A stretch of 64,000 nucleotides of DNA from assembly GCA_002305045.1 (NCBI GenBank), contig DBPX01000015.1, positions 1 through 64,000 on the forward strand. The letters run 5' to 3'. Origin of the DNA: Ruminococcus sp. UBA1409 (GTDB taxonomy: Bacteria > Bacillota > Clostridia > Oscillospirales > Ruminococcaceae). Numbering within the stretch: position 1 is the stretch's first letter; every line of letters begins with the position of its first letter. The translations under genes and the position numbers were made by a program. Shown here piece by piece: positions 60,663-63,879 of this stretch. The notes under the pieces are model-generated. The model saw only the letters and a program-made list of their open reading frames with translations, was not told the origin of the DNA and searched no databases.

Positions 60663-61643
60663 TTAGAGGGAAAGTGAGGCTAAAAGATTGTGAAGGTGCG
60701 AATCGTAGCCCTTCTTCATCGACAGAGCCTCTTGTATATCATAATCGACAAGCTTTGTATTCTTGACGGCTATGACCCTGTTTGCCTCATTCTGCCCGAT
60801 AAGCTCGACTGCGTAGCAGCCCATCCTTGCGGCTATTACCCTATCGTAGCAGGATGGAGCGCCTCCCCTCTGGACATATCCAAGAATCGTAGCTCTTGAA
60901 TCTATCCCGGTGTGCTCCTGGATATACTTAGCTATATCCTCGCTGTGACCTACTCCCTCGGCGACGACGACCTCAAAATGCGTCTTGCCGGTGTTCTTCT
61001 GGTCGATTATCTTCTTGCATATCTTGTCGATGTCATACGGCATCTCGACGGTTATGACATCTATGGCGCCGGTGGCTGCCGCTACATTTACTGCGATATG
61101 ACCCGCTCTTCTTCCCATTACCTCGACGACAGAGCAGCGGCTGTGGGACATCTCGGTGTCCTTTATCCTGTCTATCATTTCGATGCAGGTGTTCATGGCG
61201 GTGTCAAAGCCGATGGTGTAATCGGTGCAGGCTATGTCGTTATCTATAGTTCCGGGAAGGCAGATGCACTTAACTCCCAGCTTGCAGATATCCATGGCTC
61301 CTCTGTAGGTGCCGTCTCCCCCTATGCAGACAAGATAGTCGATTCCGACCTTGTCGCAGGTAGCCTTTGCCCTTTTCTGGCCCTCAAGCGTCATAAACTC
61401 CTTGCTTCTTGCGGTAAAGAGCATCGTTCCGCCACGCTGGACGATATCCGAGACATCTCTTGGTCCCATCTCGAAGAGATCCTCCTCGATAAGACCCTGA
61501 TAACCCCTTCTTATGCCCATCACTCTGTAGCCGCTGAAGATACCCGCTCTTGTGACGGCTCTTATTGCGGCGTTCATGCCGGGAGCGTCGCCCCCGCTGG
61601 TAAGTATGCCAATAGTACCCTTTATATCAGTTCTGTCAGACAT
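60663..61643 (-). CDS. pfkA: ATP-dependent 6-phosphofructokinase
   Basis: PfkA phosphorylates fructose-6-phosphate. It has 'ILTSGGDAPGMNAAIRA', the ATP motif 'CIGGDGTYRGA' (GGDGT, not the GGDDT of pyrophosphate enzymes), and the catalytic 'PGTIDNDIACTDYTIGFDTA' region. At 326 residues it is typical. ATG 61643 has GGAGGTG upstream; a GTG four codons earlier would overlap that site. The stop lies 18 bases before the THF aptamer of folT, so readthrough from pfkA into folT is likely. Confidence 0.96.
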   Translation of the reverse strand: MSDRTDIKGTIGILTSGGDAPGMNAAIRAVTRAGIFSGYRVMGIRRGYQGLIEEDLFEMGPRDVSDIVQRGGTMLFTARSKEFMTLEGQKRAKATCDKVGIDYLVCIGGDGTYRGAMDICKLGVKCICLPGTIDNDIACTDYTIGFDTAMNTCIEMIDRIKDTEMSHSRCSVVEVMGRRAGHIAVNVAAATGAIDVITVEMPYDIDKICKKIIDQKNTGKTHFEVVVAEGVGHSEDIAKYIQEHTGIDSRATILGYVQRGGAPSCYDRVIAARMGCYAVELIGQNEANRVIAVKNTKLVDYDIQEALSMKKGYDSHLHNLLASLSL

Positions 61644-61777
61644 CAAAAATTGCACCTCCGTAGGATTAGCAGGCAGACCGAATCAGCTCATGACTGCGAA
61701 AGCGGCGTCACCGTTTTACCGCAGTGAAAATATTATACATATGAAAAACCGCTTAGTCTCTGCCAGCAAACACATAA

Positions 61778-61948: not shown

Positions 61949-63733
61949 CTAGCCTGCGAACATGGCGTCGGGAGTGTAAACCGAGATGTCGACATAAAGG
62001 GTATCTCCCTCCTCGACATTTATCTGACCTCCGACACCGTCGCCGGTCTGCTTGCAGTAAACCCCCATGACAAAGCCGGACTGCTCATAGGGAGTGTTAA
62101 GCTCTCTTAGAGTATATTTTATGTTGAGCCTGTCAAGAATCTCGACATACTCCTCCTTGGTATACCTAAACTCCATGCCGGTGAACTCGTCCTGATACAT
62201 ATAATCGGGAATCTCTACGATTCTGAGTCCCTTGCTGACAAACAGCCTGACCTTCTGCACGGGATAGAGGTCGGTGCCGGCGGGAATGTCCTGGTCAAAG
62301 ATGAGTCCGCTCTCGTAATCGTCGGAATACTCGTACACGGCGTCAAACTCAAGACGCTCCTTCCAGGTCTCGCTCTCGATTACCGAGGTGTACTTCTCAC
62401 CCTTCAGGTCGGGCATTACAAACATCGTGCCGGTTGGCGCAGACGGGGTTGTGACAGGCTCGCTGTCCTCTGTCGGCAGGGTGACGATGGAGGGAACATC
62501 CGGCACGGCTTCGCTGACTCCCGGAGTGCTGTCGCTCCCGGTAGAGGGCGTGACGGCGGGATTGTTACGGCTCCCAGAGCCGTCGGGAAGGAGCATAAGA
62601 ATAAGTAGGACAAAGGCGATGACTACAACCGCAAGAAGAAGTCCTGCGGCTATGAACATCCCGGGGTTTGCTCCCCTCTTCGAGCCCTTTGAAGCAGGCT
62701 TCGGCTTTTTATTTGCTCTTTGGGCGTCGATATTTATCGTCTGCGTAGAGCCGTTTGGCAGCTTTGACATATAGCTTGGCTGCTCAAACAGCTTTGTTAC
62801 AAAGTCGGTAATGGTCTGAATCCTTCTCTGACAGGAAAGAGCCATAGCCTGTGCTATTACCCTTGAGACATTAGCCGGGATATGCGAGTTTATCTTTCCA
62901 GGCTCTAAAAGGGAGTCGTTGCCGACCCTCGCCATAGCCTCGTTAGGCATACAGCCGGTCAGGATTCTGTACATTACGGCTGCGATGGAGTAGACATCCG
63001 TCCAGGTGCCGTCCCAGTCGGCGGCTCCGTACTGCTCTGGGGCTGAGTAGCCGGGGTAAAGCTCGGGGGCAAGGTCTGTATTGACCGTTCTTATCTCGGG
63101 AATCGAGAAGCCGGTGAGCCTAAGCTCCACCCTGTCGGTGACAAGTATGTTGTCAAGGCTTATCCCACGGTGTATGATTCCTGCGTTGTGGAGACATCCA
63201 AGAGTAGTCAAAAGAGGCGGGAAAAGCTTTTTGACCTGCTCCCAGCTAAGCTCGCCGGCATTGTCGGCAAGGTACTGCTTTAGAGTCACGCCGTCGCAAT
63301 ATCCCATCACGACATACGCCGTGCCGTTTGCGGAGAACATATCGTTGGGAGCTATTATGTGCGACATCGTCCTGAATCTTGTAAGACCCTTATTCAGCTC
63401 CACAAACTCAGACATATAGTTTTTATACTGCACCAGGGAATTCTGGTTTACAAGAATCCCCAGACCGTCCGAGCTGCGCCTGCAAATAGCGTCCGGCATG
63501 TACTCCTTTATAAATACCTTGGTCCTTTCAAGATTGTCATAGCCGATATACACAGCCGACTCGCCGTTGTACCTAAGAAGCCTTCCAACGACATACCTTG
63601 AATCAAGCACAGTCCTCGGCTGAAGATAGGACGCCGGATTCGCCGAGGAGTTTACATATCCGCATTTAGGACAGATTTCAAAGCTGTCAGACTCCTCCAT
63701 GCAGCCCATGCAGAGCGTTTTATGCTCACTCAT
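61949..63733 (-). CDS. Membrane-anchored Ser/Thr kinase-like protein with degenerate active site (predicted pseudokinase)
   Basis: Domain order in 594 residues: an N-terminal zinc ribbon (C8, C11, C21, C24), a protein-kinase fold (about 45-315), a Lys/Ser linker, one membrane helix (about 359-382), a Ser/Pro/Thr-rich extracellular linker, and two PASTA-like repeats (from ~440). The beta-3 lysine is present (K76 in FIKEYMP), as is the APE motif (231-233). The HRD catalytic Asp is Gly (H188-R189-G190), the DFG motif is G208-F209-S210, and the glycine loop is degenerate. Phosphotransfer therefore looks unlikely. PASTA kinases sense muropeptides or lipid II. ATG 63733 is chosen over an upstream TTG because AAAGGAAAG precedes it. 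The promoter is at 63851-63879. Confidence 0.85.
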   Translation of the reverse strand: MSEHKTLCMGCMEESDSFEICPKCGYVNSSANPASYLQPRTVLDSRYVVGRLLRYNGESAVYIGYDNLERTKVFIKEYMPDAICRRSSDGLGILVNQNSLVQYKNYMSEFVELNKGLTRFRTMSHIIAPNDMFSANGTAYVVMGYCDGVTLKQYLADNAGELSWEQVKKLFPPLLTTLGCLHNAGIIHRGISLDNILVTDRVELRLTGFSIPEIRTVNTDLAPELYPGYSAPEQYGAADWDGTWTDVYSIAAVMYRILTGCMPNEAMARVGNDSLLEPGKINSHIPANVSRVIAQAMALSCQRRIQTITDFVTKLFEQPSYMSKLPNGSTQTINIDAQRANKKPKPASKGSKRGANPGMFIAAGLLLAVVVIAFVLLILMLLPDGSGSRNNPAVTPSTGSDSTPGVSEAVPDVPSIVTLPTEDSEPVTTPSAPTGTMFVMPDLKGEKYTSVIESETWKERLEFDAVYEYSDDYESGLIFDQDIPAGTDLYPVQKVRLFVSKGLRIVEIPDYMYQDEFTGMEFRYTKEEYVEILDRLNIKYTLRELNTPYEQSGFVMGVYCKQTGDGVGGQINVEEGDTLYVDISVYTPDAMFAG

Positions 63734-63850
63734 CAATACAATCTTTCCTTTCAAAAAGTCATATATCCACCGATATTGCTTTACTAAATCAAAAGCTGAC
63801 AGACAGCCTGCCGGCTTAAAATATTACAGTTGCCGCAAATTACCGATTTA

Positions 63851-63879
63851 ATCATACCAACGGGTGAGTAAAATGTCAA
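63851..63879 (-). promoter_or_regulatory. Near-consensus vegetative promoter of the pseudokinase gene
   Basis: A perfect TTGACA (63879-63874) and TATGAT (63856-63851) are 17 bases apart on the minus strand, 118 bases ahead of the start codon. Confidence 0.8.

Follow-up and report, generated by a model that had tools for sequence, protein, structure and literature searches.

The locus described here raises the question of what a PASTA-bearing, kinase-like protein is kept for when its kinase domain has lost a residue that catalysis requires. It lies on the minus strand, at positions 61949-63733, of a 64,000-nucleotide stretch of contig DBPX01000015.1 of Ruminococcus sp. UBA1409 (assembly GCA_002305045.1), which is called the window below, and it encodes a protein of 594 amino acids in an intact frame, composed of a zinc ribbon, a pseudokinase domain, a membrane helix and a PASTA ectodomain. 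PASTA receptors are a main known way for Gram-positive bacteria to sense their own wall; those that have been studied well use phosphorylation as their signal. Here a common gut lineage keeps a second PASTA receptor without the residue for the usual chemistry. A first-pass annotation, made from the sequence alone, proposed that the loss of both catalytic aspartates with everything else kept points to a selected, non-catalytic wall sensor or scaffold and not to a decaying gene, and it derived the function from that of PASTA kinases. A selected, non-catalytic protein is sustained by the present analysis; the derivation of its function is not. The window protein belongs to a pseudokinase family conserved in the Oscillospiraceae/Ruminococcaceae and a sister family, and it is reasonably probable that it serves as a non-catalytic, wall-facing receptor or scaffold derived from the zinc-ribbon KEYxP kinase lineage, possibly modulating PrkC.

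Loss of the catalytic base

The gene runs from an ATG at 63733 to a TAG at 61949-61951 (594 codons), and the motif positions were verified letter by letter in the window DNA. The strand, which the first-pass annotation left unstated, is minus, and all features of the gene given below lie on it. Within the kinase-like domain (residues 41-318, 62780..63613) the HRD motif reads HRG (residues 188-190, 63164..63172) and the DFG motif reads GFS (residues 208-210, 63104..63112); the beta-3 lysine K76 (63506..63508) and the APE motif (residues 231-233, 63035..63043) are kept, all as first described.

Relatives were compared in three sets chosen by similarity: a nearest set (the best 120 of 1856 database matches, the window protein among them), a sister-family set (the best 120 of 878 matches, nearest to one copy from the family coded f5) and an active-relative set (the best 120 of 7977 matches, nearest to one catalytically complete zinc-ribbon kinase). 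The VIA-align list spans residues 35-325. A wider set comprised 222 sequences, in which near relatives are over-represented since only identical cores were filtered; 203 of them, including the window protein, are without the HRD aspartate, and 18 active rows were compared with these. As the HRD-less group is defined by the motif itself, a statement such as "203/203" is circular, and the real test is the agreement between the similarity-chosen sets and the trees.

In the nearest set G190, G208 and F209 are invariant, position 190 being glycine in 120/120, and the sister-family set has glycine at this position in 119/119 readable sequences. Twenty further family genomes, picked from matches of about 7e-78 to 3e-109 and not overlapping with the main locus set, are all without the HRD aspartate (14 Gly, 6 Ala), as the wider set reads Gly in 201 and Ala in 2 of its HRD-less rows. 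The active-relative set carries aspartate at both the HRD and DFG positions in 120/120, and Lys 76 and Glu 113 in 119/119 readable sequences. The claim that both aspartates are lost stands in full for HRD, where the loss is fixed, and in weaker form for DFG. Equal fixation of the two losses was rejected because the DFG position, glycine throughout the nearest set, varies elsewhere: the 203 HRD-less rows read Gly 190, Asp 8, Ala 2, Asn 1, Glu 1 and gap 1, and the sister-family set reads Gly 64, Ser 31, Asp 17, Glu 3, Asn 2, Ala 2 and gap 1. Relatives with aspartate at this position read DFC or DFY. One subgroup (L054, L056, L057, L062, L069, L072) combines HRG with DFC, that is, a DFG-position aspartate without the catalytic base.

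Trees agree with this division. When the eight catalytic columns were omitted, the HRD-less rows fell on one side of a branch with support 99/96 (35 rows, 17 active), and with 55 pocket and activation-segment columns omitted and other rows chosen the support was 100/97 (47 rows, 29 active); in the latter alignment all of the 200 bootstrap trees (100%) contained the HRD-less branch. Inside this branch there are several changes at the DFG position. By the tree, the HRD aspartate appears to have been lost once.

Judging from the aligned columns, the nucleotide pocket is rewritten as well. The glycine loop, which had been called eroded (residues 50-62, 63548..63586), has NGES where active relatives have GGFG; positions 56-59 read N-G-E-S/G in HRD-less rows versus G-G-F-G in 16/16 readable active relatives, with N56 in 197/201 readable HRD-less rows. 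Further changes had escaped the first-pass annotation. The alpha-C glutamate position is Leu113 in the window protein (63395..63397) and leucine in 172/203 HRD-less rows, versus glutamate in 17/17 readable active rows. The beta-3 lysine, kept in the window protein, drifts family-wide, many relatives having Arg, His, Ser, Gln or Asn there (Lys 81, Arg 35, Ser 1, Gln 1 and gap 2 in the nearest set; Arg 78, His 38, Lys 2, Asn 1 and Ser 1 in the sister-family set). Finally, among the 203 HRD-less rows the catalytic-loop asparagine (N195) is replaced by Thr in 45 and by Ser in 5.

Selection and promoter

The ratio of non-synonymous to synonymous substitution rates (dN/dS) was computed for 3240 copy pairs, 65 of which had a usable dS (0.05-1.2). 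Over these 65 pairs the whole-protein median is 0.064; by part it is 0.062 for the zinc ribbon, 0.035 for the kinase-like domain, 0.113 for linkers and helix, 0.036 for PASTA 1 and 0.085 for the C-terminal unit; constraint is strongest on the kinase-like domain and PASTA 1. Open frames are full-length in most of the fetched relatives.

A sigma-70-type promoter-like sequence, TTGACA-17-TATGAT, lies at 63851..63879, and a ribosome-binding-like AAAGGA at 63746..63751 precedes the start codon. That this promoter exceeds chance is borne out by the relatives: a site with 11 of 12 positions matching and a 17-base spacer is found upstream of 29/30 close copies, the window included (in each of three pairs both copies come from one genome, which leaves 27 distinct copies), and in single-base shuffles of those 29 upstream regions the observed score was matched 0 to 3 times in 200. 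The remaining close copy has a 10 of 12 site whose score was matched by 30/200 shuffles. Among 52 loci in the range L034 to L088, 30 have the site versus 0.6 expected, L052 belonging to both sets; promoter-to-start distances are rough because a rule set the start codons in the relatives. Purifying selection together with a conserved promoter is expected of a working protein which uses the kinase fold for a non-catalytic purpose.

Domain architecture and origin of the family

The zinc ribbon (C8-x2-C11 ... C21-x2-C24, 63662..63712) is followed by the kinase-like domain, and its four cysteines are all kept in each non-gap row of the nearest set. Pfam recognises Pkinase at residues 118-266 only (65.4 bits, cut-off 31.7), so the N-lobe of the window protein goes unrecognised by it; sequence searches against NCBIfam and the PDB also returned general kinase matches. 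The single hydrophobic membrane helix (residues 358-381, 62591..62662) is seen in the sequence and as a helix in the structure model. The PASTA-like repeats of the first-pass annotation are accounted for by PF03793 at residues 439-501 (62231..62419; 37 bits, cut-off 23.2) and by a second, degenerate unit at residues 503-587 (61973..62227). The latter has no Pfam call in the window protein and looks like a second PASTA unit in its predicted secondary structure, modelled with a predicted local distance difference test (pLDDT) score over 90; Pfam finds two PASTA stretches in 6/6 clade relatives scanned.

Between the kinase-like domain and the helix lies a juxtamembrane TQTI (residues 330-333, 62735..62746), which is at most a candidate site of phosphorylation. 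T330 is kept in 185/203 and I333 in 181/203 HRD-less rows within a linker otherwise variable, and the motif is absent from the 18 active rows. At the aligned places of the sister-family set, where the alignment is loose, Thr is found in 118/120 and Ile/Leu in 114/120.

Descent from PrkC was considered and is unsupported. The curated PASTA-kinase model NF033483 gives the window protein 122.7 bits and the PrkC of the same genome 545.4, with a cut-off of 450, and the tree places the kinase domain of the window protein among zinc-ribbon KEYxP kinases and not with PrkC, the latter being a long-branch outgroup whose exact place is unsure. Local identity is about 28-36% to zinc-ribbon KEYxP kinases versus 23% to PrkC, and the window protein has both the N-terminal CxxC...CxxC ribbon and the KEYxP strand. 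PASTA is listed for 0/120 proteins of the active-relative set and, in precomputed Pfam assignments, for 120/120 of the sister-family set; direct scans were positive in 6/6 clade members versus 0/14 active relatives. The PASTA ectodomain was probably acquired by a kinase of the KEYxP lineage. The analogy with PASTA kinases, from which the function had first been taken, should be replaced by a zinc-ribbon kinase lineage which probably acquired PASTA and lost the catalytic base once. Active zinc-ribbon kinases of Clostridia (L096, L097, L099, L103, L104, L109, L112, L114, L117) carry varied C-terminal domains of F5/8-type C, MORN, lectin, RDD and TcaA-like kinds.

The relatives of the window protein that are pseudokinases come from two bacterial families, with many members from animal guts. 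Among 391 genomes sampled from the class, matches of 1e-52 or better, counted as strong, were found in 6/6 genomes of family f1 and 8/8 of family f5, and all 14 are without the HRD aspartate. Three other families of the order (4 sampled genomes) gave only weak matches of about 1e-17 to 1e-22, of PrkC size; strong matches also occur in other families of the class, and those read are catalytically complete zinc-ribbon kinases. Some match is present in 292/297 genomes of the window's family, a count that includes PrkC, so near-universality in the family is an estimate. Named members of f5 include Caproiciproducens and Caproicibacter; Caproiciproducens is placed in the Acutalibacteraceae by NCBI taxonomy, and from its named members f5 is probably this family.

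Genome context

The genome of the window is 1.74 Mb and 88.5% complete. Its one other Pfam kinase-family match is a canonical PrkC with three PASTA domains, whose gene adjoins a Stp1/IreP-type (PP2C) phosphatase and rsgA; the genome thus has a second, catalytically complete PASTA kinase and a phosphatase, and it encodes IreB too. Another PASTA protein (G000:C19:56104-56463; L007, L008) lies in a 773-amino-acid frame; of its two PASTA matches one exceeds the cut-off and the other falls short of it, and it is perhaps a penicillin-binding protein.

The pseudokinase gene sits between pfkA (6-phosphofructokinase, 60663..61655, minus strand), a downstream synteny marker outside the proposed mechanism, and a divergent cardiolipin synthase gene, cls. 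The first is found within two genes of the pseudokinase at 39/78 loci (34/59 among loci flanked on both sides by three or more genes) and the second at 26/78. Neither was retained as an operon partner, as synteny yields no mechanism. The cls gene (L119 4094-5620, G000:C14:64094-65620, plus strand) may offer a link to the envelope. A small protein with a zinc ribbon and a membrane helix (cluster 26, named by eye) occurs within two genes at 8/78 loci, mostly of Ruminococcus (L041, L064, L073, L074, L078, L082, L084, L088). At 5/7 sister-family loci (L151, L153-L156) a YebC-type gene is directly upstream, and a phosphofructokinase of another subtype is nearby at 2/7. In the window's genome YebC is four genes upstream, and in the main set plus the window it is near only 3/78 loci and never within two genes. 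The YebC synteny between the two families is thus weak, and the case for orthology is made by the tree and the common architecture.

Proposed explanation and its alternatives

What the letters of the gene and its relatives document is a fixed loss of the catalytic base, a rewritten pocket, purifying selection, a conserved promoter and a single branch; that the kinase fold is kept is predicted by the model. The explanation proposed is that a zinc-ribbon kinase of the KEYxP lineage gained a PASTA ectodomain and lost its HRD aspartate. The resulting pseudokinase would transfer no phosphate, its extracellular PASTA units would bind to, or be located at, the wall or septum, and its cytosolic zinc ribbon and kinase-like fold would act as a docking scaffold, the output of which may be tuned by phosphorylation at the juxtamembrane T-x-T-I. 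The most likely client or regulator would be the complete PrkC/PrpC/IreB pathway of the genome.

Several observations weigh against a non-catalytic wall receptor of this kind. Aspartate is present at the DFG position in 8/203 HRD-less rows, in 4/20 further genomes and in 17/119 sister-family sequences, and K76, the catalytic-loop asparagine and this aspartate in some relatives may allow nucleotide binding or an unusual activity. The activation segment is modelled at a low-confidence pLDDT of 55-59. The TQTI motif is lost or changed in deeper branches; FHA proteins are the usual readers of such phosphothreonine sites, and no FHA protein was matched in the window's genome at its 88.5% completeness. 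The neighbours pfkA, an ECF component, cls and YebC give no pointer to a wall pathway, cls loosely excepted.

A closer commitment would be that the pseudokinase pairs with PrkC at the septum, making contact by the kinase-like or the PASTA domains, and that it increases, decreases or redirects PrkC phosphorylation, which is possible, if somewhat unlikely. PrkC, PrpC and IreB are complete in the same genome and the PASTA ectodomain is common to both proteins; PrkC is widespread, so the co-occurrence of the two is uninformative, and the loci are unlinked (prkC on contig C12, the pseudokinase on C14). A similar role has been proposed for CD2148 of Clostridioides difficile, which is reported to alter PrkC output: in vitro it became phosphorylated only when PrkC was present, and a PrkC-dependent phosphosite of CwlA rose more than four-fold in the CD2148 mutant (PMC9674922, PMC8262956). 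The authors of that work nevertheless count 41 proteins phosphorylated under CD2148 control, so CD2148 may itself be active.

The most far-reaching version is doubtful and is offered tentatively. It would make the family an undescribed class of receptor, the zinc-ribbon/PASTA pseudokinases, widespread (perhaps near-universal) in one family and found also in its sister family, which sense the wall via PASTA and control growth non-catalytically, with a re-purposed N-G-E/Arg pocket, a T-x-T-I switch and a dedicated role as PrkC co-receptor.

It is unlikely that the N56/G57/E58 loop and R215, the arginine after DFG, form a new site for a non-canonical ligand or a different reaction, comparable to SelO or SidJ. 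E58 is found in 200/201 readable HRD-less rows and 117/119 readable sister-family rows, R215 in 201/203 and 119/119, and neither in active rows; that position 190 shows one fixed replacement, Gly, and does not drift suggests that a new constraint arose. However, the positions of the beta-3 lysine (K/R/H) and alpha-C glutamate (L/M/Y/H) drift, unlike a catalytic centre, and the NGE loop and R215 could be purely structural.

Weak phosphorylation dependent on adenosine triphosphate is much less probable still. Lys76, Asn195 and the acid at 194 would have to suffice for it; the first two are kept in the window protein, the acid is present in 199/203 HRD-less rows and the DFG-position aspartate in 8 of them, but the HRD aspartate, alpha-C glutamate and glycine loop are jointly lost across the branch, and K76 and N195 are themselves unconserved. 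A decaying gene, or a sequencing or assembly error, has nothing but the motif losses in its favour and is rejected in view of the HRD loss shared in every similarity-chosen set and by the low dN/dS of the kinase part, alongside mostly full-length relatives and the conserved promoter.

Some sources label family members "serine/threonine protein kinase" or "protein kinase", and such labels may mislead counts of the kinome and phosphoproteomic work in these bacteria. The family also offers a clean case of conversion from kinase to pseudokinase, with one loss of the HRD aspartate on the tree and both aspartates in every protein of the active-relative set.

Comparison with known systems

The MviN pseudokinase is attached to a lipid flippase. 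In Mycobacterium this member of the ActPs3 family is described as phosphorylated by the PASTA kinase PknB and recruiting FhaA (PMC12599244). It is, like the window protein, a membrane-tethered and wall-linked pseudokinase, but its motif losses are other ones and no PASTA is attached to it. According to the same source, pseudokinases serve as scaffolds or allosteric partners, and EssB/YukC of type VII secretion is likewise a membrane pseudokinase scaffold in Firmicutes; it has a markedly reduced activation loop, and its description there mentions neither zinc ribbon nor PASTA (PMC12599244). CD2148 is also a second Hanks-type protein beside PrkC, with no autophosphorylation detected, but by its authors' account it keeps the Hanks signature motifs and is without PASTA (PMC9674922, PMC8262956); it was compared by description and not by sequence.

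Bacterial pseudokinases are defined by having lost at least one among the beta-3 lysine, the HRD aspartate and the DFG aspartate; the window protein, with its kinase fold, is without both aspartates. Judged by eye from the motifs described, it appears to fit none of the seven bacterial pseudokinase families of a 2025 review (PMC12599244). The marks given there include GLW, a kept HRD aspartate (DLHK), an activation-loop deletion or a 250-residue insert, and the lack of a membrane helix (CP1, DLHK). Against the descriptions of ActPs1, ActPs2, ActPs3, GLW, CP1 and DLHK, the window protein has HRG/GFS, one membrane helix and no large insert or deletion that was noticed. DYD pseudokinases, membrane-associated proteins of Firmicutes and Actinobacteria, are described with DYD for DFG, a beta-3 arginine and no alpha-C glutamate (PMC12599244); membership was rejected because the window protein reads GFS and its aspartate-bearing relatives DFC/DFY, the other features agreeing in part. 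No publication on a zinc-ribbon/pseudokinase/PASTA architecture stood among the literature entries listed, which for the larger result sets were 20 of 510, 15 of 341 and 12 of 386.

The PASTA serine/threonine kinases (PrkC/PknB/Stk1/StkP; NF033483) have in common with the window protein the cytosolic kinase fold, one membrane helix and a PASTA ectodomain, which in PrkC-type receptors is described as binding peptidoglycan fragments. The window protein differs from them in its added zinc ribbon, in the absence of intact HRD and DFG motifs, in falling below the NF033483 cut-off and in the grouping of its kinase part elsewhere. By sequence, tree and fold its closest counterparts are the Clostridia kinases of the zinc-ribbon KEYxP Hanks type, together with the solved PpkA kinase domain (5hnv, 5x1r). 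The KEYxP kinases share the (I/V)KEY(F/Y/M)P strand and, in most Clostridia members fetched, the zinc ribbon; those sampled are catalytically complete, and the domains named above, or no recognised domain, stand in place of PASTA. Bacterial pseudokinases are already known, and the zinc-ribbon/PASTA family is a new variant among them.
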